DNA of 64,000 bases, taken from Exiguobacterium acetylicum. Lineage in GTDB: Bacteria > Bacillota > Bacilli > Exiguobacteriales > Exiguobacteriaceae. This document shows positions 780 to 21,182 of this stretch, one piece after another. The stretch is from contig NZ_CP082333.1 in the NCBI RefSeq assembly GCF_019890935.1, forward strand, positions 1,018,001 to 1,082,000. Reading direction: 5' to 3'. Made by a program: the position numbers and the translations under genes. The notes under the pieces were generated by a model. The model ran no database searches. It saw only the letters and a list, made by a program, of their open reading frames with translations, and was not told where the DNA came from. Each line of letters begins with the position of its first letter. The first letter of the stretch is position 1.

Positions 780-1020
780 AAGGGGCTGACTCAAAAGTCA
801 ATCTTTACAAAGAAAAGGGTGGCAGACTGATGATCTGCCACCCTTATTTCGTAATAAAAGACTCGCCACACGCTACTCCTACAGGAAAAAGCGCACTTTT
901 GCGCTGTCAGAGACAAACAAGACCCGCTTTTCTGCTCAAATGAAGCAGAAAACTGGCTTGTGTCTCGCCTGAGGAAAGGGCGTGAAGAGACGAGTCGTTC
1001 TTTTTTTTAGTCATCCTCTT
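780..1020 (+). repeat. Structured intergenic repeat, copy A
   Basis: This ~241-bp element recurs at 17956-18204 and 20935-21182 in the same orientation. It begins AAGGGGCTGACTCAAAAG. The inverse of this motif closes copies B and C but is decayed here (AGTCATCCTC). Inside are hairpins GGGTGGCAG/CTGCCACCC, GCGCA/TGCGC and TTCTGCT/AGCAGAA, and a long stem joining GACTCG to CGAGTC. Compared with the other copies some stem positions have changed on both sides. It lies between two converging genes (stops at 777 and 1026) and probably terminates both. The element is not recognised as any named family. Confidence 0.85.
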
Positions 1021-1025
1021 CTTAA

Positions 1026-1922
1026 TTAGGAGGATTGACTAGTGGCACTCTCACGCTGGGCAAGTTGTTCACGAATATCCCGTTCATTGCGTCGAAGGAA
1101 CAATCCGATTCCGATCAACAGTAAAGCGGCACCGGTGATTTGAATCCATGTCAACTTCTCATCAAACAGATAGTATCCGAAAATCATCCCCCAAACCGCT
1201 TCACCAAGAATCGTGATGCTGACTATGCTGGCGCTGACACGAGCGAGCGCCCAGTTGAATAAATTGTGACCGAGTAACGTCGGGAAGACGGCGAGAAGAA
1301 TATACAGCCACCAATCCTGTTGGAACGCAGCGACAAGATTCGTCGATTGAATCAACGATAACAAAAGCAAGACGAGCGACGCGACGGCGTAGACACCGAA
1401 CGAATAGAGGTTCGTCGAGACGCTCGTGCGAACATGTTGACCGAGCAACCAGTAACCAGCGACGAGAATCGTTGCGAGCAAGGCAAGACCGTCCCCGATT
1501 AAGGCGCGCATGCCGACGGCGATATCTCCATAAGCGACGAGACCGCCACCAAATAAGGCGACAGCGACGAATAGGAGTGCTTTGCGTGACGGGTGTTGTT
1601 TGAAGAATAACGCGTTACCGGCCAGGACAAAAATCGGACTCGCGGTCACGAAGAGCGTCGAGCTCGCAACTGTCGTATAATCAAGAGAGAGGAACCACAG
1701 CCAAAAATGCCCGGCGAGCAAAATGCCACTTAATAGCATATGCCGGATCGTCGACGAACTGAGTTGCAACAGTTCCTTCAATCGAATGAGTGGGAGCAAC
1801 AACAAGGTCGAAAACAACATGCGGTAAAAGGCGACAGCCTCGATCGGTGTCTCCGCCCACTTGACGAAGATTGCCGATGTTGAAATAAAGAATAAAGCCA
1901 TGAATAACGTAAAATAGGGCAT
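1026..1922 (-). CDS. EamA-family (DMT superfamily) transporter
   Basis: This is a roughly 298-residue, very hydrophobic protein with about ten membrane helices arranged as two EamA-like repeats. It starts MPYFTLFMALFFISTSAIFVKW; the second repeat begins near LVAGYWLLGQHVRTS and includes ILGEAVWGMIFGYYLFDEKL, a typical EamA ending motif. Such proteins export amino acids, nucleosides or metabolites, and the substrate here is unknown. The ATG at 1922 is chosen because GGAGG stands five bases upstream; a GTG twelve bases further out has no such signal. The gene is divergent from topB, with only about 45 bases between starts, so the two promoters are packed together. Confidence 0.85.
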   Translation of the reverse strand: MPYFTLFMALFFISTSAIFVKWAETPIEAVAFYRMLFSTLLLLPLIRLKELLQLSSSTIRHMLLSGILLAGHFWLWFLSLDYTTVASSTLFVTASPIFVLAGNALFFKQHPSRKALLFVAVALFGGGLVAYGDIAVGMRALIGDGLALLATILVAGYWLLGQHVRTSVSTNLYSFGVYAVASLVLLLLSLIQSTNLVAAFQQDWWLYILLAVFPTLLGHNLFNWALARVSASIVSITILGEAVWGMIFGYYLFDEKLTWIQITGAALLLIGIGLFLRRNERDIREQLAQRESATSQSS

Positions 1923-4514: not shown

Positions 4515-4560
4515 TTGAACAGGATGACGTAATATAACTTAACGTCATCATACTGTTCAA
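4515..4560 (+). promoter_or_regulatory. Long inverted repeat before the His-tailed protein gene
   Basis: TTGAACAG-GATGACGT is followed 11 bases later by ACGTCATC, three bases, and CTGTTCAA, giving two perfect 8-bp arms on each side. No run of T follows; the next bases are the ribosome site GGAGG of the gene at 4575. It could be a processed hairpin, an operator, or a structure controlling translation. It follows the topB transcript by 12 bases, so it could also weaken read-through. Confidence 0.6.
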
Positions 4561-4574
4561 TTGGAGGGTTCATC

Positions 4575-5027
4575 ATGTTCACACTAGCATTCATGGAAAG
4601 CGAACTGGGAGGCGACGGCTTCTTCTCGGGCATGCCAATTTTCATGGTCGGATTTTTCATTCTCATCATCGGTTTCATTCTGTTTGGAGTCATCTCTGCA
4701 GCCTCAAAGGGAATCTCAACGAATTCATTGACGCAACAACTGCGCGAGCATGCGGCGCGTCTCGTCAGTCCGGATGAATCGGATGCACTGAATTACGTCG
4801 CTTACTTAGAAACGTTGACAAGTTTTCCGGTCGAAAAGACGAATCTCGAACCGTTTCGGATTGCGACTGGCATCTTAAGGCTCGTCCAAGGAACAGATCA
4901 GATTTCCGAAACGACGAAAAAACAAGTCGTCGCCCAGTACCTACGGCTCGGCATTTTGGATGCGGATCATTTAGCGGACGAACAGCCGGTCCGGAGTCAT
5001 AGTCATAGCCATCACCATCATCATTGA
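4575..5027 (+). CDS. Single-span membrane protein with histidine-rich tail
   Basis: This 150-residue protein has one strong membrane helix (about residues 20-43, PIFMVGFFILIIGFILFGVI) and a soluble C-terminal domain that includes a helical segment LEPFRIATGILRLVQGTDQI. It ends in HSHSHHHHH, a natural metal-binding tail. No characterised family is recognised. The ribosome site TTGGAGGG stands nine bases before the ATG. The tail suggests Ni, Zn or Cu binding or buffering at the membrane, but that is an inference from composition. A terminator hairpin follows directly. Confidence 0.7.
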   Translation: MFTLAFMESELGGDGFFSGMPIFMVGFFILIIGFILFGVISAASKGISTNSLTQQLREHAARLVSPDESDALNYVAYLETLTSFPVEKTNLEPFRIATGILRLVQGTDQISETTKKQVVAQYLRLGILDADHLADEQPVRSHSHSHHHHH

Positions 5028-5028
5028 A

Positions 5029-5056
5029 AAAGGGTCCTGAGGGGCTCTTTTTTTGT
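5029..5056 (+). terminator. Rho-independent terminator
   Basis: AAAGGGTCC pairs with GGGCTCTTT (one G-T and one T-G pair) around a TGAG loop, followed by seven T. It closes the His-tailed gene and possibly the topB transcript. Confidence 0.75.
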
Positions 5057-5235
5057 TGAAAACGGTTGAATCGTGACATCTAATTGTCATATACAACGAT
5101 TTAGATTAAAGTTGTATGAAATTGAAATCTTTTTGAGCAGAATGCTGTGTATCGATTGAAAAAAGTTTACAATGAATGGACGGGAATACCTTTATTGCTG
5201 GAGAAGGATAAAGGGAAAGGAGTTGAATTCCTTTA

Positions 5236-7791
5236 ATGAAAACATGGCTGAATCGAACAATCGGACGGCAAATCATGTCTGCGTTTTATGTGATTTTTCT
5301 GACACTGCTGCTAACGACAGGTGGTGTCTACCTATATACGAAACAACAGGTGGATGAATCACGCCAAGAGTTAAAGATGTTAAACGAACATCGGACACGG
5401 GCGACGGATTTGTACGAATCATGGCAAAGCATGCAGTACGAGATGCGTGGCTTCGTCTTGCTTGGTGACGAAGAGATGTTAAAAGAAGTCGAAGCAAAGA
5501 AAAATGGCATCAATCGACAAACGACGTGGTTCGAGCGCAATGCACGTTTTAAAGAAGAACGACAGTATGCAACGGATGCACGGGAACTCTACACGGCGTA
5601 TACCCAACGCGTCATGCCGAGCCTAGTCAATTATGTCGCGGCGAAAAAAGACGGAAAAGTGACGGAGCCATTCTTGAAGATGCCGACGCTCGGAAAAGTG
5701 ACGAAATCAAAACCACTTGATCCACAGCGGAAGTTCAATATCAAGACGAAGAGTGCGGCTGATATGAGTTCAAGTATCGTTGATATGGAGACGGTCTTCA
5801 CGAAATATCGTAATTCCTTAAACGATCAAGAGATGGCAGCGCAAGAGCGGCTTGGTAAACAAGTCAACTCGTCGCAAATTCTCGGAGCCGTCAATATTGC
5901 AATCCTCTTATTGATTACTCTCGTTTTCGTCCGACCATTCGTCCGCCGCTTGACGCGTCAGTTGCGTCAGTTGAACCGGGAAAGTGGACGACTCGCTAAA
6001 GGTGAGGATGCGACACCGATCGTCATCACGAATCGTCAAGATGAGATTGGTGAGTTGACGACGACGTTCAACCAGATGGCAGCCGCCATTTCCGGGCAAA
6101 AACATCAACTCGTCGCAAGTAACGACGAACTACAAAGTCAACAGGAAGAATTAATTGCCCAGCAAGAAGAACTTCAATCGCAACAGGAAGAACTCGAAGA
6201 AGCACTCGACATCACGTTACGTAACGAGACCCATTTGCGTTATCGCAATGAGTTGACCGAGACACTTGCGTCTCGCGAAACGTTGACGGCGTATCCGGCG
6301 ATCATCGAAAAATTGATCACGATCACTGATGCGGAGCTCGGAGCGATCGTCTTCTTAGAGCAGGACCGCTATACGAATCTCGTCTCGTACGGGATGACGG
6401 CAGCTCAGGAGCACCAGTTATTACATGCTTCGACGTCATTACTCGAACGCACACGTCTAAACAAACGTGCTGTTCGCTCGACGAAACAAGTCGCGAGTCA
6501 TCATCCGCTCCCATATCCGTACACGATGTACGAAATCGTCGTACCGGTGATGGATCCAGCGACGAACACGATGATTGCAAGCATTTACCTCGTTCGTTAC
6601 CGGGATGCCTTTACGGAAGACCAGACGAACGAAATCTGGTCGTTCTCCCGTCAATTGGCACTCTCCTTGCTCCGGATGCGTGTCTTTGAAGAAGTCGAAC
6701 GAGAACGGGAAAAGACGTCCAAACTTCTCCATTCGATTCGGGAAGCGGTCATCTATATCGAAGGAGAGACGATTTTTGCCAATAAACCATTGCTCGCTTT
6801 ATTCCATCATCCGGCGCACGATCAAGTGGCGGAAGAAGGATTGATGACGCTCGACGTCAAAATCGAAGAGTTGGCAGTGCAAGTCGATCAACATGAGGCG
6901 TTCTTAACCTACATGGATCATGTCTGCAGTCAGGAAATTCCGACGGAGAGCTTGGCGTTGTCCTTAAACAAGGAAGAGCGATTCGTCACGCTGTATGCAG
7001 AGGAAATTCATTACGGTGGTTGTTTCCGCGGTACGATGCTCGTCTTACGTGACGTGACGGCAGAGACAGCAATCGACCGGATGAAATCGGAATTCGTCTC
7101 GACCGTCTCGCATGAGTTGCGGACACCGCTTGCCTCGATTTACGGCTACACGGAATTGATGCTCGCGCGCGACGTCCAGGAATCAAAACGTCAACGGTAT
7201 CTCGAGACGATTCATGCAGAAACCGAACGGTTGACGAATCTCGTCAACGACTTCCTAGATGTCCAACGCATGGAATCGAGTCAGCAACAATATGACTTCA
7301 AACCGCTTGATTTGACGAAAGTCATTCAGGAAACGGTCGAGTTCCATACGGCTTCGGCAAAAGATCACGAACTCGTCCTTGATTTTGAAGAAACGACGAC
7401 GGGACGGATTCATGCGGACGAACAAAAAATGCGTCAGCTGTTCACGAACCTGATCAACAATGCGATCAAGTATTCACCGGATGGTGGTCAAATCACGATT
7501 ACGATGCGTCAAGTCGAAGATCGTGTCCAGCTGAAGATCGAAGATGAGGGAATCGGCATTCCGCGTCACGCGTTACCACAACTGTTTAGTAAGTTTTACC
7601 GAGTCGATAATTCGGATAGTCGAAAAATCGGCGGTACCGGTCTTGGTCTTGCGATTTGTCAGGAAATCGTTCGTTCGCACGAAGGAATGATTCATGTCGA
7701 ATCAACGGAAGGTGTCGGGTCCGCGTTCATCGTCGAACTACCGATCGTCCAGTCCGTCGTACCGGTCACGGAATCGGCAGATGACTGTTAA
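5236..7791 (+). CDS. Orphan membrane sensor histidine kinase (HAMP, coiled coil, GAF-like, PAS-like, HisKA, HATPase)
   Basis: This 851-residue protein has membrane helices at about 14-34 and 215-235 enclosing an extracytoplasmic helical sensor of about 180 residues that resembles CHASE3-type domains. A HAMP linker, a Gln/Glu coiled coil with repeated QSQQEEL units (about 295-325), a GAF-like domain, a PAS-like domain and a full kinase core follow. The phosphorylated histidine is in SHELRTPLAS at residue 626. The N, G1 and G2 boxes are NLINNAIKYSPDGG, DEGIGIP and GGTGLGLAI. The start is supported by AAAGGAG. No response regulator gene is adjacent; candidate partners are the REC-phosphatase at 22895 and the free HPt protein at 25137. 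The signal sensed is unknown. Confidence 0.9.
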   Translation: MKTWLNRTIGRQIMSAFYVIFLTLLLTTGGVYLYTKQQVDESRQELKMLNEHRTRATDLYESWQSMQYEMRGFVLLGDEEMLKEVEAKKNGINRQTTWFERNARFKEERQYATDARELYTAYTQRVMPSLVNYVAAKKDGKVTEPFLKMPTLGKVTKSKPLDPQRKFNIKTKSAADMSSSIVDMETVFTKYRNSLNDQEMAAQERLGKQVNSSQILGAVNIAILLLITLVFVRPFVRRLTRQLRQLNRESGRLAKGEDATPIVITNRQDEIGELTTTFNQMAAAISGQKHQLVASNDELQSQQEELIAQQEELQSQQEELEEALDITLRNETHLRYRNELTETLASRETLTAYPAIIEKLITITDAELGAIVFLEQDRYTNLVSYGMTAAQEHQLLHASTSLLERTRLNKRAVRSTKQVASHHPLPYPYTMYEIVVPVMDPATNTMIASIYLVRYRDAFTEDQTNEIWSFSRQLALSLLRMRVFEEVEREREKTSKLLHSIREAVIYIEGETIFANKPLLALFHHPAHDQVAEEGLMTLDVKIEELAVQVDQHEAFLTYMDHVCSQEIPTESLALSLNKEERFVTLYAEEIHYGGCFRGTMLVLRDVTAETAIDRMKSEFVSTVSHELRTPLASIYGYTELMLARDVQESKRQRYLETIHAETERLTNLVNDFLDVQRMESSQQQYDFKPLDLTKVIQETVEFHTASAKDHELVLDFEETTTGRIHADEQKMRQLFTNLINNAIKYSPDGGQITITMRQVEDRVQLKIEDEGIGIPRHALPQLFSKFYRVDNSDSRKIGGTGLGLAICQEIVRSHEGMIHVESTEGVGSAFIVELPIVQSVVPVTESADDC

Positions 7792-10384: not shown

Positions 10385-10388
10385 TCAA
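10360..10388 (-). promoter_or_regulatory. Sigma-A promoter for the MFS exporter
   Basis: On the minus strand TTGACA (10388-10383) and TACACT (10365-10360) are 17 bases apart. The -35 box overlaps the stop codon of the upstream permease. The duplicate at 12513-12541 reads TTGATA and TAAACC, a decayed version. Confidence 0.7.
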
Positions 10389-11413
10389 TCAGAATCGTGA
10401 CGGGAGTTCCGGGCAACGAGTGTAAAGGGATCGACCATCGACGTCGCAGCGGCTTCGTCTTGAGCACGAGATGCCGATAGCTTGATTGGTTTTAGTTGCT
10501 GGCGGAAGCGGAAAGCCCGTTCGAGTCGACTCATGAATAGATTACTGAAAAAGACGACTAATGCTAGCCCAATCAGTGGAACAAGGAACATATGACTGAG
10601 CCAAGACGTCGCTGAAAACTGGTTATAGTAATAACCGAACATCGAGGACCACTCAAAAATCGTTGGGGCAGTTCCTACATGTAAATTAACCGTTCCAGCG
10701 AAGAAAATTTTGAAAAGTGATAAGTGAACGAGTAACATCAACGTTTGGATGAACTGTTGCATAAAAACGATTGTCAACGTTGGAACAAGATGTGGCCAAA
10801 TGTGGCGTCTGAACCGATGCCACGGACTGCCACCAAGCGTCTGGGCGACAATCATGAACTCTTGACTAAGTAACTGACGGGTCTCAGCAATCAGATAAAG
10901 CGATAAAGAGGGGAGACCAAGCAAAATCAAGACGATCAACTCGAACGATACACGGTCGAACAACGGTGGGATAGCAGTCGAATCAAAGAACGTAAGTGAT
11001 GGAAGCAAAAGGAGCAATGCGACAAGAGAGAGCGGTAAAACTAAAAATCCATCAAGAATAAGTTTTAAGTATCGATTGACGCGAGCACTTCTAAAAGCTA
11101 GCGGAATCGCAATCACTAGCGAAAGAAACATTCGACCGAGCGCAACAATCATACAAATACCGGCTGTCCATTTAAATCCTTCAATCATCAATTGAAAGAG
11201 GTCATAGCCAGAGCGGTCTGTACCGAGCCATTGATCACTTGACGGTTTTAGTGGTGACGTCGCAAGGAACGTACCGTCTTCAGCATACCGGTTCGAGATT
11301 TGATCGACTTGACCATCACGGAAGATCGTATTTCCAAAACTAAGGAGCAGTAAACCAGTGAGTAAAAATAAACATAGCCAGAAGACAGGATCTCGCATCA
11401 AAGTACGACGCAT
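10385..11413 (-). CDS. ABC transporter permease, DppC/OppC-like, duplicate 1
   Basis: This is an approximately 342-residue membrane protein with six or so helices. LGTDRSGYDLFQLMIEGFKW matches the OppC/DppC entry motif (LGTDxxGRDxxSRxxxG), and QEFMIVAQTLGGSPWHRFRRH is the EAA-type loop that contacts an ATPase. The start ATG at 11413 overlaps the stop of the preceding permease (TGATG). It is about 70% identical by eye to the gene at 12538, its tandem duplicate. No ATPase or binding-protein gene lies in the operon, so it must borrow one or act otherwise. Confidence 0.85.
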   Translation of the reverse strand: MRRTLMRDPVFWLCLFLLTGLLLLSFGNTIFRDGQVDQISNRYAEDGTFLATSPLKPSSDQWLGTDRSGYDLFQLMIEGFKWTAGICMIVALGRMFLSLVIAIPLAFRSARVNRYLKLILDGFLVLPLSLVALLLLLPSLTFFDSTAIPPLFDRVSFELIVLILLGLPSLSLYLIAETRQLLSQEFMIVAQTLGGSPWHRFRRHIWPHLVPTLTIVFMQQFIQTLMLLVHLSLFKIFFAGTVNLHVGTAPTIFEWSSMFGYYYNQFSATSWLSHMFLVPLIGLALVVFFSNLFMSRLERAFRFRQQLKPIKLSASRAQDEAAATSMVDPFTLVARNSRHDSD

Positions 11414-12273
11414 CAAATCCCCCCTTTCCAGGCGTTAGGAATAAGCCATTCTGCCAACAAATCAATGATGAAAATCGGCAGATAGATTAAGAACAAGATG
11501 ACCATCAAAATCGGCATTTGTCCATTATAAAAGACGAACCGGAACATACCTTGCACTTCGAACGTGTATTCAATGATCACGAGACTCGATAAGACCGTAA
11601 TGATGTTCGCTCGGAAAAACAGATAAAACCGATAGATCATTGTCGGAATCAAATGTTTCCAGAAAAGAGCGGCAGGACGAATGCCTTTAGCCCGTGCGAG
11701 TTCAAGGAAAGGAGCAGCTTCCTGTTCGAGTACTTGCGTCGTTAACCATTTGATGAAGAAGAATAGTGTTGTCAACGTTAGCGTAAGAATCGGTAAAAAA
11801 CGAATGTACTCAGCATAGGATCCCGCAATTTCGATTTTGTCATACCCGGTCGTTTTAAACAGATAGAGGACAAGGAATTGCGAAAGAATGATCCAGAACA
11901 GATCCGGAACCATCTCAAGCGTCCGAGTCGTTTGTTTCAGCATCATGCGTGTTTTGCGGCCACTTCGATAAAACAAATAAGCATAAAAAATCGCACACAC
12001 AGCGGAGACCAGCATAGCTGTCGTAAAGATGATCAACGTCTCTTTAATGAATGGACTGATGGTAGGAAGCAACAAGAATTCCTTTTGAGCGGTTACGTTG
12101 AAATAGGTAATCTCATCAAGTTTCGTTAATTGAGCAAATTGTTGCTTCAGACCTTCCCAGTAGCTTGCTGGGTTGAATTTCATTTGCGCGACGAGCGCCG
12201 GAAGAGCGCTGATCGCAATCAAGACAAAAAAAGCCACGATGAGCTGAATCGATTTTCGGGCGATAAAAACCAT
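11413..12273 (-). CDS. ABC transporter permease, DppB/OppB-like, duplicate 1
   Basis: This ~286-residue membrane protein starts MVFIARKSIQLIVAFFVLIAI. It contains the permease loop FLELARAKGIRPAALFWKH, the EAA motif of DppB-like subunits, and ends in WLIPNAWKGGI. The ATG at 12273 follows GGAG at a slightly long 11-base spacing. It pairs with the DppC-like gene that overlaps its stop. The same two-gene unit is repeated at 12538-14426. A remnant of a DUF58 gene sits just upstream, showing that this copy arose by tandem duplication from the neighbouring unit. The substrate is unknown. Confidence 0.85.
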   Translation of the reverse strand: MVFIARKSIQLIVAFFVLIAISALPALVAQMKFNPASYWEGLKQQFAQLTKLDEITYFNVTAQKEFLLLPTISPFIKETLIIFTTAMLVSAVCAIFYAYLFYRSGRKTRMMLKQTTRTLEMVPDLFWIILSQFLVLYLFKTTGYDKIEIAGSYAEYIRFLPILTLTLTTLFFFIKWLTTQVLEQEAAPFLELARAKGIRPAALFWKHLIPTMIYRFYLFFRANIITVLSSLVIIEYTFEVQGMFRFVFYNGQMPILMVILFLIYLPIFIIDLLAEWLIPNAWKGGI

Positions 12274-12301
12274 GAAGTGAGAAACTCCTTTCTTTGGATC
12301 C

Positions 12302-12454
12302 TCAGCCGATGGCGAGGATCCGGTCATTACCAATCTGGATCAACTGACTGTTCATATGTTTTCGGCGAAGCACATAACGTTCGAACTGTTCCGTCGCGAT
12401 GAATGAATCACGCGTCGAGACCGTCGAGAGCGTCATCAGGACATGTTTTAATTG
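12302..12454 (-). pseudogene. 3' remnant of a DUF58 gene left by tandem duplication
   Basis: These bases match the last ~150 bases of the DUF58 gene at 14450-15517. The frame is still intact for about 50 codons and differs from the parent by one residue (FIATEQFERY against FIATQQFERY) despite about ten base changes, so nearly all the differences are silent. There is no start codon with a ribosome site, and an in-frame TGA lies shortly upstream, so translation is doubtful. It marks one edge of the duplicated ~2.15-kb unit. Confidence 0.85.
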
Positions 12455-12537
12455 AGTAGGAGTGAGAATTCAGAATGACTTACATTGGACGCCCTCATTT
12501 CATGTTTTTTCTGGTTTAAGAGGAAAAAAATGGATTA
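12455..12537 (-). repeat. Downstream end of the tandem duplication, copy 2
   Basis: This is the counterpart of 10301-10384, joined here directly to the DUF58 remnant. The join reads TTTTAATTG-AGTAGGAGTGAG, and only a few bases of similarity are seen at the crossover. Its promoter-like boxes are degraded to TTGATA and TAAACC. Confidence 0.82.
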
Positions 12538-13566
12538 TCAACGTGTTTCTTGCTTGATGTGATGGCGAACGGGAGCGAATGGATCATCGAGTGATGTGAC
12601 CGCTGCCTCGTGTTGAACAATCGATGTCTCTTCGATGACAGGTTGATCGTGACGGCGAATACGATACGCGCGTTCGAGTCGACTCGTTAATAGATTACAT
12701 AAGAAAATCAACAAGGCAATACCAATCGTTGGAACAAGGAACATATGATTGATCCAAGAAACAGCAGAAAACTGATTAAAATAGTATCCAAACATCGACG
12801 CCCATTCGAAAATCAGTGGAGTGATGCCTTCATATAAGATGACCGTACCTGAGAAGAAGATTCCGAATAGCGATAATTGCACCAGGAGCATCAAAGTTTG
12901 AATGAATTGTTGCATGAAGATGATCGATAACGTCGGAACAAGATGTGGCCAAAGGTGGCGACGGAAACGATGCCATGTCCCACCCCCGAACGTTGATGCC
13001 ACGACCATGAACTCTTGCGTTAAAATTTGCCGTGTCTCGCCAATGATATAGAGGACGAGTGAAGGTAAACCCAGTGCGATCAAAATCGTGAATTCAAAAG
13101 TCAGACGATCTGAAAGGTAAGGAACAGCCAACATCTCAGGAAATATAAGAGAGGATAACATAAGCATCAAGGCAAGTAGCGAGACAGGTAGCACTAAAAA
13201 CCCATCCATGACAACTTTTAGTACACCGTGCAGTCGTTTTCCACGAAAGGCTAATGGAATACCTATCATCAGCCCGAGTATGAGGCGTCCTAAAGCAACA
13301 AACGCGCAGACACCAAAAGTCCATTTGAACCCTTCGATCATCATTTGGAACAAGTCGTTTCCTGAACGGTCGGTTCCAAGCCATTGGTCCAATGAAGGTT
13401 TTAGCGGAGAGGTGGCAATGAAGGTGCCATCATCAGCATAACGATTTGAAATACGATCCACTTGTCCATCTCGGAAAATCGTGTTTCCAAAACTCATCAA
13501 AAGCAGACTAGTCAGTATGATGATACATATCCAAAAAATCGGATCACGCACAAGAGTCCGTCGCAT
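12538..13566 (-). CDS. ABC transporter permease, DppC/OppC-like, duplicate 2
   Basis: This ~342-residue protein has the OppC-type motif LGTDRSGNDLFQMMIEGFKW and the EAA loop QEFMVVASTFGGGTWHRFRRH. It is the closest relative of the gene at 10385. ATG at 13566 is chosen because GGAG stands seven bases upstream and the codon overlaps the stop of the previous permease (TAATG); an in-frame ATG 21 bases further out lacks this. It belongs to the original copy of the duplicated unit, directly downstream of DUF58 and MoxR genes. Confidence 0.85.
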   Translation of the reverse strand: MRRTLVRDPIFWICIIILTSLLLMSFGNTIFRDGQVDRISNRYADDGTFIATSPLKPSLDQWLGTDRSGNDLFQMMIEGFKWTFGVCAFVALGRLILGLMIGIPLAFRGKRLHGVLKVVMDGFLVLPVSLLALMLMLSSLIFPEMLAVPYLSDRLTFEFTILIALGLPSLVLYIIGETRQILTQEFMVVASTFGGGTWHRFRRHLWPHLVPTLSIIFMQQFIQTLMLLVQLSLFGIFFSGTVILYEGITPLIFEWASMFGYYFNQFSAVSWINHMFLVPTIGIALLIFLCNLLTSRLERAYRIRRHDQPVIEETSIVQHEAAVTSLDDPFAPVRHHIKQETR

Positions 13567-14426
13567 TAGAGTTCTCCTTTCCATGCATTTGGAATGAGCC
13601 ATTCTGCTAGGAGATCCAATACGAAAATCGGAAGATAGACTAAAAATAAAATAACAAGCAGAATCGGCATTTGTGAATTATAGAGGACGAAGCGGAATAA
13701 TCCTTGTACTTCGAAAGTATATTCAATGATTAATAAACTCGATAACACCGTGATGATATTTGATCTAAAGAACAAGTAAAAACGATAGAACATCGTCGGT
13801 AACAAATGCCTCCAAAAAAGTGTGCTGTTCCTAAGACCTTTCGCACGCGCAAGTTCGAGGAACAAGGACTCCTCTTGATCTAAGATTTGTGTCGTCAGCC
13901 ATTTGATAAAGAAAAAGACCGTCGTCAAAGTTAGACATAGAATCGGTAGAAAACGAATAGAGTCAGCATACGTTCCGGCGACCTCGATTCGGTCAAAGCC
14001 AGTCGTTTTAAAGAGATAAATGACAAGAGATTGAGAAAGGATGACCCAAAATAAATCAGGAACCATTTCGAGCGTGCGGCTCATTTGTCTCAAGAACGTT
14101 CGCATCCATTTACCACTTCGATAAAAAAGAGAGACGTATAAAATCGCAACCACAAATGAGACGGCAAGCGAAGTCAAAAATAGAATCAGAGTTTCCTGAA
14201 TCATTGGTTGTAAAGCAGGGAGTAGCAGATCTTCTCGTTCTGCAGTGACGTTATAGTATGTAATTTCATTCAGCTTGGTGAGTTGATGGAACTGTTCTTG
14301 TAAGCCAGTCCAGTAACTCTCGGGAACGAAATGCATACGGACGACAAGTGATGGAAGCGCACTGATTGCGATCAAAACGAAAAAAGCGATGATGAGCTGT
14401 AGTGATTTTCGAGCAAGAAAAGTCAT
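13566..14426 (-). CDS. ABC transporter permease, DppB/OppB-like, duplicate 2
   Basis: This ~286-residue membrane protein (MTFLARKSLQLIIAFFVLIAI) has the loop FLELARAKGLRNSTLFWRH and ends WLIPNAWKGEL, parallel to duplicate 1. The ATG at 14426 has GGAG eight bases upstream. It starts 24 bases after the DUF58 stop, so the permeases are on the MoxR-DUF58 transcript. The large extracytoplasmic loop after the first helix (about residues 30-85, with YWTGLQEQFHQLTKLNE) is well conserved between the copies and may contact a partner. Confidence 0.85.
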   Translation of the reverse strand: MTFLARKSLQLIIAFFVLIAISALPSLVVRMHFVPESYWTGLQEQFHQLTKLNEITYYNVTAEREDLLLPALQPMIQETLILFLTSLAVSFVVAILYVSLFYRSGKWMRTFLRQMSRTLEMVPDLFWVILSQSLVIYLFKTTGFDRIEVAGTYADSIRFLPILCLTLTTVFFFIKWLTTQILDQEESLFLELARAKGLRNSTLFWRHLLPTMFYRFYLFFRSNIITVLSSLLIIEYTFEVQGLFRFVLYNSQMPILLVILFLVYLPIFVLDLLAEWLIPNAWKGEL

Positions 14427-14449
14427 GAACGAGACTCCTTTCATTAAAG

Positions 14450-15517
14450 TCATCCGATGGCGAGGATCCGATCATTGCCAATCTGGATCAACTGACTGTT
14501 CATGTGTTTACGGCGCAGTACGTAGCGTTCGAACTGTTGTGTTGCGATGAACGAATCACGCGTCGAGACCGTCGAGAGCGTCATCAGGACATGTTTTAAT
14601 TGTGGTTGTCCTTCTTGTAGTGAAAGATGTGTCATTCGGTTCGATCCGTCGAGTCGATTGAGGAACAGTTCAATCTTACAGCCTTCCTTGATCAATTCAC
14701 TGATCAGGAATGCCGCTTGTTCAATGAACGTCTCAAATTGTTGATGGAGACCGTAACCGCTCGGAGCTGATAAATTTAAGGCAATCGTAAACGTATCCTG
14801 ATTGCTCGTTTCGAACACTTTCGCCTGCAGACGACCGGTCTTCGCCGTCGCATACCAATCGATTTCTTTTGACGGTTCCGCCGTATAGGGTTTTGCACCA
14901 AGCTGAACGAGTTTGTTCTTGAGCGGTGAGTAGCGGTCCGGTCGATCACCGATCCGTAAACGTTGTAAAAGAAGCGGCGTCGCTTGCGCCGTCAAGGACG
15001 GCAAGACTGTAAACGATGGATACGTATCGAACGTAAAGAGATAAACGCCCATCTTCCAAGGCAGGCGAATCGTCAAGATGATCTCATCGAATTCGGCGGG
15101 TCCACGACGAACCGTCTGAATCGGGATCGTCACTGCGTCTTCAGAGTCAATCACTGCATGAAACGTCGCCGGGTGTAGTGGATCCATCTCCGGGAAGATG
15201 ACTCCGCCATCCGTGTGCAAACGAAGTGTCGCTTCGAGCCCAAGTTGACTCAAGGATTCGACGCCGAAGACTTGCAAATGGAGCGATGTCTTCTCCTGGT
15301 TGAACATCAATGATTCATAATGTTTCCATTCGATTGCGACATCCCGTCGTAACTGCTTTTCTGTTCGCCCGACGACGAAATGAATCGTCGCCAAAGCTGC
15401 GAACAGAAATCCGAGGACGGAAAGACGCGGAATGAAGAGGAAGATGAACGTCATCGTGACGTACAGTGGAAAAAGTCGGCGTTCAAGCCAAAACGGGACG
15501 GAACGTTCAATCTGCAT
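14450..15517 (-). CDS. DUF58 domain protein
   Basis: This 355-residue protein has two N-terminal membrane helices (FPLYVTMTFIFLFIPRLSVLG and the next segment) and a soluble region. The DUF58 signature is PYTAEPSKEIDWYATAKTGRLQAKVFE-like, at about 215-240, and precedes a vWA-like C-terminal fold. DUF58 proteins regularly pair with MoxR AAA+ ATPases and are thought to act as adaptors for protein assembly or membrane-complex activation. GGGGTGA lies before the ATG, and the MoxR stop is six bases upstream. Its last ~50 codons have been copied into the remnant at 12302. Confidence 0.88.
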   Translation of the reverse strand: MQIERSVPFWLERRLFPLYVTMTFIFLFIPRLSVLGFLFAALATIHFVVGRTEKQLRRDVAIEWKHYESLMFNQEKTSLHLQVFGVESLSQLGLEATLRLHTDGGVIFPEMDPLHPATFHAVIDSEDAVTIPIQTVRRGPAEFDEIILTIRLPWKMGVYLFTFDTYPSFTVLPSLTAQATPLLLQRLRIGDRPDRYSPLKNKLVQLGAKPYTAEPSKEIDWYATAKTGRLQAKVFETSNQDTFTIALNLSAPSGYGLHQQFETFIEQAAFLISELIKEGCKIELFLNRLDGSNRMTHLSLQEGQPQLKHVLMTLSTVSTRDSFIATQQFERYVLRRKHMNSQLIQIGNDRILAIG

Positions 15518-17269: not shown

Positions 17270-17295
17270 GATTCATTTTCAAGTGGTAAGGGTAT
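17270..17295 (+). promoter_or_regulatory. Candidate sigma-B-type promoter
   Basis: GGGTAT (17290-17295) is a perfect sigma-B -10 box. GATTCA (17270-17275), 14 bases upstream, is a partial match to GTTTAA. It would serve the oxidoreductase gene at 17336. Confidence 0.35.
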
Positions 17296-17335
17296 GATGG
17301 AATCAGTGGTTCTTGAAAGAGAAAGGATGTTTTGT

Positions 17336-17950
17336 ATGAAATTGATTATTTTTGGAGCGACGGGTCAAACGGGGCAAGAACTGGTCAAGCAAGCGATTGA
17401 TCACGGTCATGAGGTCACAGCATTCGTCCGTAGTCCGGAAAAACTGACACTACGTGACGAACGGTTACACGTCGTTAAAGGCGACGTGCTCGATCAAGAA
17501 GCGGTGACGGCTGCTGTTGCCGGGCAAGAGGCTGTCCTGACAGCACTCGGTACGGAAAGTCTTGCTTACAATGGCTTTTTAGAACGAAGTCTCGTTCGGA
17601 TCGTGACAGCGATGAAAAAACAGGGGGTAGACCGGATCGGTTATGTTGCGTCTGCCGGTGTTGATGATGAATTACCGGGTGTACAAGGGATGCTCGCTCA
17701 GCGGATTCTGAAAAATCCACTGAAGGATCACCGCCAAGCGATCGCGCTTTTGCAACAAGCAGATTTGAACTATACGGTAGCCCGACCACTCCGTTTACTG
17801 AACGGTCCGTTGACGGGACTTTATCGTCAAGCAGATACAGGTGTACCGGAAGATGCGAAACAGATCAATCGCGCAGATGTGGCGCATTTCCTCTTACAAG
17901 CGATTGAAACAGAAGATCATATCAAATCGAGTGTCGGTCTCGCTGAATGA
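17336..17950 (+). CDS. NAD(P)-binding protein, NmrA/SDR-a like
   Basis: This 204-residue Rossmann protein opens MKLIIFGATGQTGQELVKQA with the dinucleotide loop GATGQTG and continues with AFVRSPEKL and VVKGDVLD, typical of the atypical short-chain family (YwnB/NmrA-like). It lacks a clear YxxxK pair, so it is either a quinone or flavin reductase of the atypical type or a redox sensor. ATG at 17336 has AAAGGA upstream. A GGGTAT box before it suggests general-stress control. It ends six bases before repeat copy B. Confidence 0.8.
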   Translation: MKLIIFGATGQTGQELVKQAIDHGHEVTAFVRSPEKLTLRDERLHVVKGDVLDQEAVTAAVAGQEAVLTALGTESLAYNGFLERSLVRIVTAMKKQGVDRIGYVASAGVDDELPGVQGMLAQRILKNPLKDHRQAIALLQQADLNYTVARPLRLLNGPLTGLYRQADTGVPEDAKQINRADVAHFLLQAIETEDHIKSSVGLAE

Positions 17951-17955
17951 TGAAG

Positions 17956-18204
17956 AAGGGGCTGACTCAAAAGTCAGTCTCTACAAAGATAAGGGTGACA
18001 GAATGATAATCTGCCATCCTTATCTCGTAACAAAAAGAATGACGCGTCACACGCCACTCCTACAGGAACAAGCGCATTTATGCGCTGTCAGAGACGAACA
18101 AGACCCGCTTTCCTGCTTCAACGAAGCAGGAAAACTGGCTTGTGTCTCGCCTGAGGAAAGGGCGTGAAAAGACGCGTCATTCTTTTTTTGAGTCAGCCTC
18201 TTTT
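17956..18204 (+). repeat. Structured intergenic repeat, copy B
   Basis: This 249-bp copy has intact ends: GGCTGACTCAAAA at the left pairs perfectly with TTTTGAGTCAGCC at the right. A 17-bp inner stem joins AAAAAGAATGACGCGTC to GACGCGTCATTCTTTTT. Smaller hairpins are GCGCA/TGCGC and TCCTGCTT/AAGCAGGA. It fills the space between converging genes (stops at 17950 and 18211) and can terminate both. Confidence 0.9.
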
Positions 18205-18210
18205 GATTTC

Positions 18211-19764
<1,554 letters not shown>

Positions 19765-20934: not shown

Positions 20935-21182
20935 AAGGGGCTGACTCAACAGTCAGTCTCTACAAAGATAGGGGTGGCAGAATGATGATCTGCCACCCTT
21001 ATCTTGTAACAAAAAGAATGACGCGTTTCACGCCACTCCTACAGGGAAAGTGCATCTTTGCGCTGTCAGAGACAAATAAGACCCGCTTTCCTGCTTGAAT
21101 AAAGCAGGAAGATTGGCTAGTGTCTCGCCTGAGGAAAGGGCGTGAAAAGACGCGTCATTCTTTTTTTGAGTCAGCCTTTTTT
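20935..21182 (+). repeat. Structured intergenic repeat, copy C
   Basis: This 248-bp copy has a perfect GGGTGGCAG/CTGCCACCC hairpin, and the small hairpin is GTGCA/TGCGC, keeping pairing through a G-T wobble. The 17-bp inner stem (AAAAAGAATGACGCGTT on the left) has one change at its end. Closing ends GGCTGACTCAA/TTGAGTCAGCC are intact. It separates two genes on the same strand, unlike copies A and B. Confidence 0.9.

Follow-up and report, generated by a model that had tools for sequence, protein, structure and literature searches.

Folded repeats between the genes of the window

The window, the whole 64-kb stretch of DNA analysed here, contains three copies (A, B and C) of a folded repeat of 235-241 bp that lacks an internal transposase frame. 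All three share one layout: from left to right, a terminal repeat, a hairpin, a closing stem (P1) enclosing a three-way junction, a T-run and a right repeat. The central module, which forms the three-way junction, measures approximately 137 nt. Of the two ORFs on either side of copy B, one (17294-17950) ends 7 nt before it and the other (18211-19752) ends 12 nt from it. A covariance model applied to the window returned exactly three matches, copies A, B and C, confirming the places given in an earlier note on this DNA. The paired changes quoted there, GACTCG/CGAGTC in copy A against GACGCG/CGCGTC in copies B and C, and TTCTGCT/AGCAGAA in A against TCCTGCT/AGCAGGA in B and C, are present as described. 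Its claim of near-mirror ends, GGCTGACTCAAAA/TTTTGAGTCAGCC, holds exactly in copy B only, since the right end of copy A reads ...TAGTCATCC and copy C starts with GGCTGACTCAACA; the ends of the element as a whole, GGGGCTGACTC/GAGTCAGCC, are likewise altered in copies A and C. Elsewhere in the window (10385-14453), two tandem pairs of alike permease-like genes, at 10385-12333 and 12538-14453, look like part of a duplicated operon.

Table 1 Features of the three repeat copies in the window (R2, the broader of the two models of the module)
Feature	Position	Strand	Remarks
Copy A, folded repeat	782-1016	+	Terminal repeat to terminal repeat; terminator hairpin at the same spot in relatives
Copy A, left hairpin (AAGGGTGGCAGA...TCTGCCACCCTT)	815-845	.	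Sequence and predicted fold
Copy A, three-way-junction module	859-994	+	R2 match, 88.6 bits
Copy B, folded repeat	17958-18198	+	Between convergent genes
Copy B, left terminal inverted repeat GGGGCTGACTCAAAAG	17958-17973	+	
Copy B, left hairpin	17988-18024	.	
Copy B, P1 5' arm GAATGACGCGTC, A-run before	18037-18048	+	
Copy B, three-way-junction module	18040-18176	+	R2 match, 90 bits; covariation
Copy B, P1 3' arm GACGCGTCATTC, then seven T	18171-18189	+	Terminator-like
Copy B, right terminal inverted repeat TTTTGAGTCAGCC	18186-18198	+	
Copy C, folded repeat	20937-21176	+	
Copy C, three-way-junction module	21019-21154	+	R2 match, 84 bits

In the window's genome (G000, 3.39 Mb), 66 BLAST pieces were merged into 40 regions. 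Of these, 24 are full-length copies and 13 consist of the right part or the core only; the other three are fragments (L038-L040), left out of the convergent-gene count, the empty-site comparison and the genus core alignment. The earlier note's "three-copy" repeat is therefore three-copy in the window but has 37 whole or partial copies in the genome, and the wider search that the note proposed gave element matches in all 19 genus genomes searched. Copy number varies widely among related genomes. By a rough gene call, convergent gene pairs flank 24 of the 37 copies; a comparable rough call, set to a higher minimum length, gives 8 convergent pairs among the window's 66 gene pairs. Several copies fill the convergent gap to within 20 nt of both stop codons. 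In copy B, both strands bear terminator-like sites (4, compared with 0.5 for shuffled sequence), and no promoter-like site was found around this copy.

Replacement of terminator hairpins

The 37 copies were set against the matching stretches of relatives; a paired ortholog was available for 15, and for 10 of those an empty one. At nine of the ten empty sites (A = L022, B = L001, C = L009, L005, L014, L016, L020, L023 and L025), an intrinsic-terminator-like hairpin, folding at -18 to -30 kcal/mol, stands at the element's place. The flanks of the replaced hairpin are largely kept, mostly including its A- and T-tracts. Empty sites and target duplications had both been proposed as things to look for; the former exist, and the latter are absent at the junctions of the nine informative sites. 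The exception among the ten is L013, where the hairpin is retained to the right of the element; an end of a second kind is also present in this copy.

Site A was compared in 12 relatives. Eight keep the hairpin: G011, G010, G002 and G009, together with the more distant G015, G004, G014 and G018, in which the flanks of the site are 73-79% identical. In G001 the element lies in the plus orientation, as in G000, but has lost an internal part; in G006 and G017 it lies in the minus orientation; and G016 has a complete 1,835-bp IS1182-type element with matching junctions. At the L025 site, the element lies in opposite orientations in G001 and G000, and G016 has the hairpin, so that either orientation at one target is seen at two sites. 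The comparison of relatives' sites shows that the element has been mobile in the past and, as read from the aligned junctions, that it replaces its target terminator hairpin without target duplication. These sites offer natural before-and-after views of a transposon that removes the stop signal of a gene and supplies its own instead, as has been described for IS1272/TnSha1.

IS1272 and TnSha1 belong to the IS1182 family. They are reported to insert at DNA secondary structures formed by inverted repeats, among them several confirmed terminators, with one plasmid terminator hit in two orientations (PMC4923244); the stem-loop is deleted on insertion and target duplication is absent (PMC4923244, PMC5678879), a mode named inverted-repeat replacement (PMC5678879). 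Like these elements as there described, the window element targets terminator hairpins, deletes the stem-loop, makes no duplication and inserts in both orientations. Unlike them, which are autonomous or gene-carrying, it has no transposase gene, and it carries a structured module, none being mentioned for IS1272/TnSha1 in the available text of PMC4923244 and PMC5678879. Because it inserts like IS1272/TnSha1, we read it as a non-autonomous IS1182-type element, a membership supported by the insertion mode together with similar ends. With good confidence, then, the repeat is a non-autonomous transposon (MITE) of the IS1182-family type. Of the three guesses in the earlier note, each catches part: the MITE is supported by the empty sites, the terminal inverted repeats, both orientations and the full IS1182-type element at site A of a relative; the bidirectional terminator is echoed in copies that sit at former terminators and in the terminator-like sites that copy B has on either strand; the third, a family of intergenic RNAs, is taken up below.

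The 1,835-bp IS1182-type elements of the genus (L091-L095, L101, L102 and L193) have ends similar to those of the window element (GAGGCTGGGACATAACT vs GGGGCTGACTCAAAAGTC) and have the site A target in common with it. They encode a 527-aa transposase (L091, L095), whereas the window element encodes none. No module was found in them, either by the genus model R1 (all but L193) or by R2 (L091, L093, L095, L102 and L193). Neither DDE_Tnp_1_6 nor the transposase of the G005 element described below has a match in G000; lacking an IS1182-type transposase, the element cannot at present move on its own in that genome. An autonomous partner in the same genome was thus missing from G000, although relics do not strictly require one. 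Among the loci fetched, no autonomous element had identical ends, those of the G005 element (GAGGGTGACTCATAAGTC...) being close to the window element's but not the same. A 1.9-kb candidate parent at the L012 site in G016 proved to be a mini-element interrupted by an insertion sequence (L213 8548-10220); the inserted element has two ORFs, a layout from which we take it to be of the IS3 type.

Under the proposed mechanism, the element would be the left end of an insertion sequence, the structured module, a hairpin and the right end, the transposase gene having gone. These ends would be recognised by a transposase acting in trans, which would pick out the hairpin of an intrinsic terminator, excise it with blunt cuts and insert the element there instead, facing either way. 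The element would probably keep transcription terminated both ways, since its own hairpins have A- and T-runs on both sides; the sole sign that termination is probably restored is the terminator-like sites on both strands. Termination kept in both directions would make insertions nearly harmless and would explain their persistence between convergent genes. The data make the renewal of bacterial terminators by mobile elements a testable idea.

The module in IS1182-type transposons and across Bacilli

The G005 element is 2,056 bp long (L090 1502-3557, ends GAGGGTGACTCATAAGTC/CTTTTGAGTCACCCTC); its right end coincides with the contig end in L090 and was read in L084. The module lies at its left end (1551-1693, minus strand) and is followed by a strong hairpin and by a 527-aa transposase starting at 1854, 160 nt from the module and antisense to it. 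We read the left hairpin of copy B as the positional counterpart of this hairpin between module and transposase. A tblastn search with the G005 transposase found relatives on annotated plasmids, including many called IS1182 family, with a best identity of 44%.

The module also stands upstream of, and antisense to, the transposase in a second IS1182 type (L096, L303-L306, L097 and L100; ends CAGACTGAAGACAAA/TTTGTCTACGATCTGA), at a distance of 64 nt in L096. It lies antisense and upstream of an IS1182 transposase by 106 nt in L282/L296 (G179) and by 97 nt in L307 (G288), and a weak match in L318 (G007) has the same placement. The measured distances thus span 64-160 nt, and the module occurs beside the transposases of several IS1182 elements. 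Both module matches in G179 adjoin IS1182 transposases, and two further IS1182 copies in that genome have no module match beside them (L316 tested with the model). R2, applied to 26 IS1182 loci outside the genus, matched the module clearly at one (L249, which is the L307 locus again) and marginally at another (L252), leaving 24 without a match. The annotated plasmid IS1182 loci L189 and L190 and the IS1182 loci L308-L317 gave no module match, so that the module is absent from most of the IS1182 loci examined and its presence is no general rule. R1 missed L096, L097 and L100, which R2 found, so loci searched with R1 only are weak negatives. In L307, an ORF at 4547-5434 after the IS1182 element reads like a class A beta-lactamase.

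In L096, L304, L305, L306 and L097, a whole terminator-like hairpin of 20-30 bp is directly repeated at both flanks of the second-type element, whose ends lie near 1790 and 3449 in L096; L303 has a second-type element without hairpin copies on both flanks. The doubled hairpin looks as if it were itself the target duplication of this type. Hairpin doubling also occurs with two-module mini-elements in a sister genus (L127, L150). Replaced hairpins on the one hand and doubled hairpins on the other point to two related terminator-seeking groups, one replacing and one duplicating. The short G000 copies L028, L029 and L031-L034 look to us like composites of both types. In L145 (1351-1746), a copy lies between near-identical GAGGGTGC...GCACCCTC hairpins, one on each side, as if a terminator had been doubled.

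In a sample of 299 Bacilli genomes, R1 had matches in 33 and R2 in 84, the latter spread over 26 of 118 genera; the window's own family accounts for 27 of these 84. In a phylum-wide sample, 3 of 299 genomes matched, all from the window's own class. By pattern matching alone, an exact pattern was found in at least 119 stretches; the genera among the 80 matches listed include Peribacillus, Oceanobacillus, Lysinibacillus, Rossellomorea, Halobacillus, Sporosarcina and others. One exact-pattern match outside Bacilli, among the matches listed, is L335, from a record titled Arthrobacter beigongshangensis. A plasmid search with a window copy gave no match, and one with a Bacillaceae copy gave 16 records. 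The plasmid copies, in Priestia, B. badius, B. subtilis and Paenibacillus urinalis, are intergenic or lie over a small hypothetical ORF; one sits after zwf-gnd. Many module copies in other Bacilli are solitary, with no IS1182-type transposase near.

Modules are also frequently arranged as inverted pairs; in every case listed here the order is minus then plus, with the 5' ends facing, and in none plus then minus. Such pairs were seen in L127, L150, L159, L267, L269, L036, L056, L125, L260, L143 and L144, and further in L146-L148, L154, L157, L161, L271, L274, L289, L211 and L217. Same-strand pairs occur too, in L163, L186, L137 and L143, and L257 contains an overlapping weak self-match of the module.

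No description of the module was found in the titles and abstract openings listed from the open-access literature; the Bacillaceae repeat may have been described earlier elsewhere. Module strings of 12-13 letters led only to unrelated eukaryote papers among the matches listed. Known Bacillus repeat families include bcr1, others of that genus, and Bhal-1 and Bhal-2 of B. halodurans (PMC2267715). As far as their descriptions go, bcr1 and Bhal-1/Bhal-2 resemble the window element in being intergenic, structured and repeated.

Fold, covariation and possible role of the module

The predicted folding energy of copy B is -119.7 kcal/mol, whereas 200 shuffles average -61.6 (sd 4.4; z -13). For the genus alignment, a 94% score cut brought 66 cores down to 34, and the duplicate L090 was omitted. 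In 18 of 40 pairs both sides had changed (shuffles, 4.7), and paired cells made up 97.1%, falling to 32-50% when the arms were slid. The class-wide alignment, with 41 distinct rows fitted to the model, had double changes in 31 of 40 pairs (23.4 shuffled) and in 304 cells (86.8 shuffled); with slid arms, these fell to 9-16 pairs and 38-68 cells. The covariation of the module exceeds both shuffled and slid controls, as expected of a structured RNA. The earlier note's proposal of selection for folding is strongly supported by these counts, obtained through the covariance model and covariation test that it had suggested. It had named many copies with uncoupled differences and no transcript or defined ends as evidence against the idea; copies are indeed many, yet their stem changes are coupled and their ends defined.

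That note left open whether the fold acts as RNA or as a cruciform, and the asymmetry of G-U over A-C pairs favours the former. Identical rows were removed before the covariation and G-U/A-C counts, and pairs with less than 75% Watson-Crick pairing were dropped in the filtered counts. At pairs picked by Watson-Crick covariation alone, G-U exceeds A-C by 62 to 27 cells and by 17 to 4 pairs (p 0.007). At the pairs of the folded structure, the counts are 37 to 12 in the genus (p 0.004) and 58 to 33 overall (p 0.08). As the rows are related and the counts non-independent, these p-values are optimistic. Unfiltered for badly paired columns, G-U stands at 98 and A-C at 108, and a filter taking the commoner of G-U and A-C as paired gives 54 and 89; 57 A-C cells come from a single column pair that is unpaired outside the genus. 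The excess leans towards RNA on the module strand. A search of Rfam 15 at gathering score gave no match in the window or in 16 loci with diverse copies, and with E-values to 5 the best match of copy B was a chance-level miRNA match; a known RNA family was rejected for want of any credible match in these searches.

The module would most likely belong to the parent insertion sequences as an RNA element, transcribed from the strand that does not encode the transposase; lying next to the transposase start, this antisense-strand RNA may shield or regulate the transposase gene. That it is a working transposon RNA we put forward tentatively. Equally tentative is the wider reading, that it represents a large, uncatalogued Bacilli RNA family of IS1182-type transposons, placed inside their left end, antisense to the transposase and active in the transposition of these terminator-seeking elements or its control, which mini-elements have spread to tens of copies per genome and some of which now form host gene ends. 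We regard the whole as neither an artefact nor ordinary: a known style of transposition in a mini-element with an uncatalogued, widespread RNA-like fold. An RNA-like fold without an Rfam match, present in more than a quarter of the sampled Bacilli genomes and tied to a transposase family, makes it testable whether a DDE transposon uses structured RNA.

Alternatively, the fold could act as DNA, a cruciform or hairpin bound by the transposase or by a host protein. The module does lie just inside the transposon end, and the minus-then-plus pairs would suit such a role. DNA folding, however, would not favour the excess of G-U over A-C seen at covarying pairs on the module strand, and a module-less IS1182-type element uses the identical target site; we consider this unlikely. 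Somewhat less likely still, the module would be a host non-coding RNA family with a cellular fold, repeated by chance and only incidentally transposed. Its very strong covariation, its junction nucleotides conserved across Bacilli and the many stand-alone intergenic copies without a nearby transposase fit that account, but copy number differs widely between related genomes, sites filled in one species are empty in the next, and the module recurs at a similar position in IS1182 elements.

Very improbable is a large bidirectional terminator, spread by recombination and not a transposon at all: the location at the 3' ends of convergent genes and the terminator-like sites on both strands agree with it, but the empty sites largely refute it already, and the defined ends, the replacement of unrelated hairpins, and the opposite orientations and full insertion sequence at one site also speak against it.

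REP/BIME elements are intergenic palindromes that occur in inverted pairs. The window element resembles them in being intergenic and palindromic, with modules often in inverted pairs, and the only Y1_Tnp match of G000 lies approximately 1.7 kb from copy A. Its fold is much larger, however, and linked to IS1182-type transposases, not to a Y1 enzyme, and movement by a Y1 transposase (RAYT), the least credible of these accounts, was rejected because 10 of the 19 genus genomes have the element with no Y1_Tnp match and 0 of 15 Y1_Tnp loci had a module within approximately 1.5 kb (R1; the G000 locus does not quite reach copy A). The G000 match itself is a 137-aa open frame at G000:C1:1016710-1017066, 0.9 kb before the start of the window.
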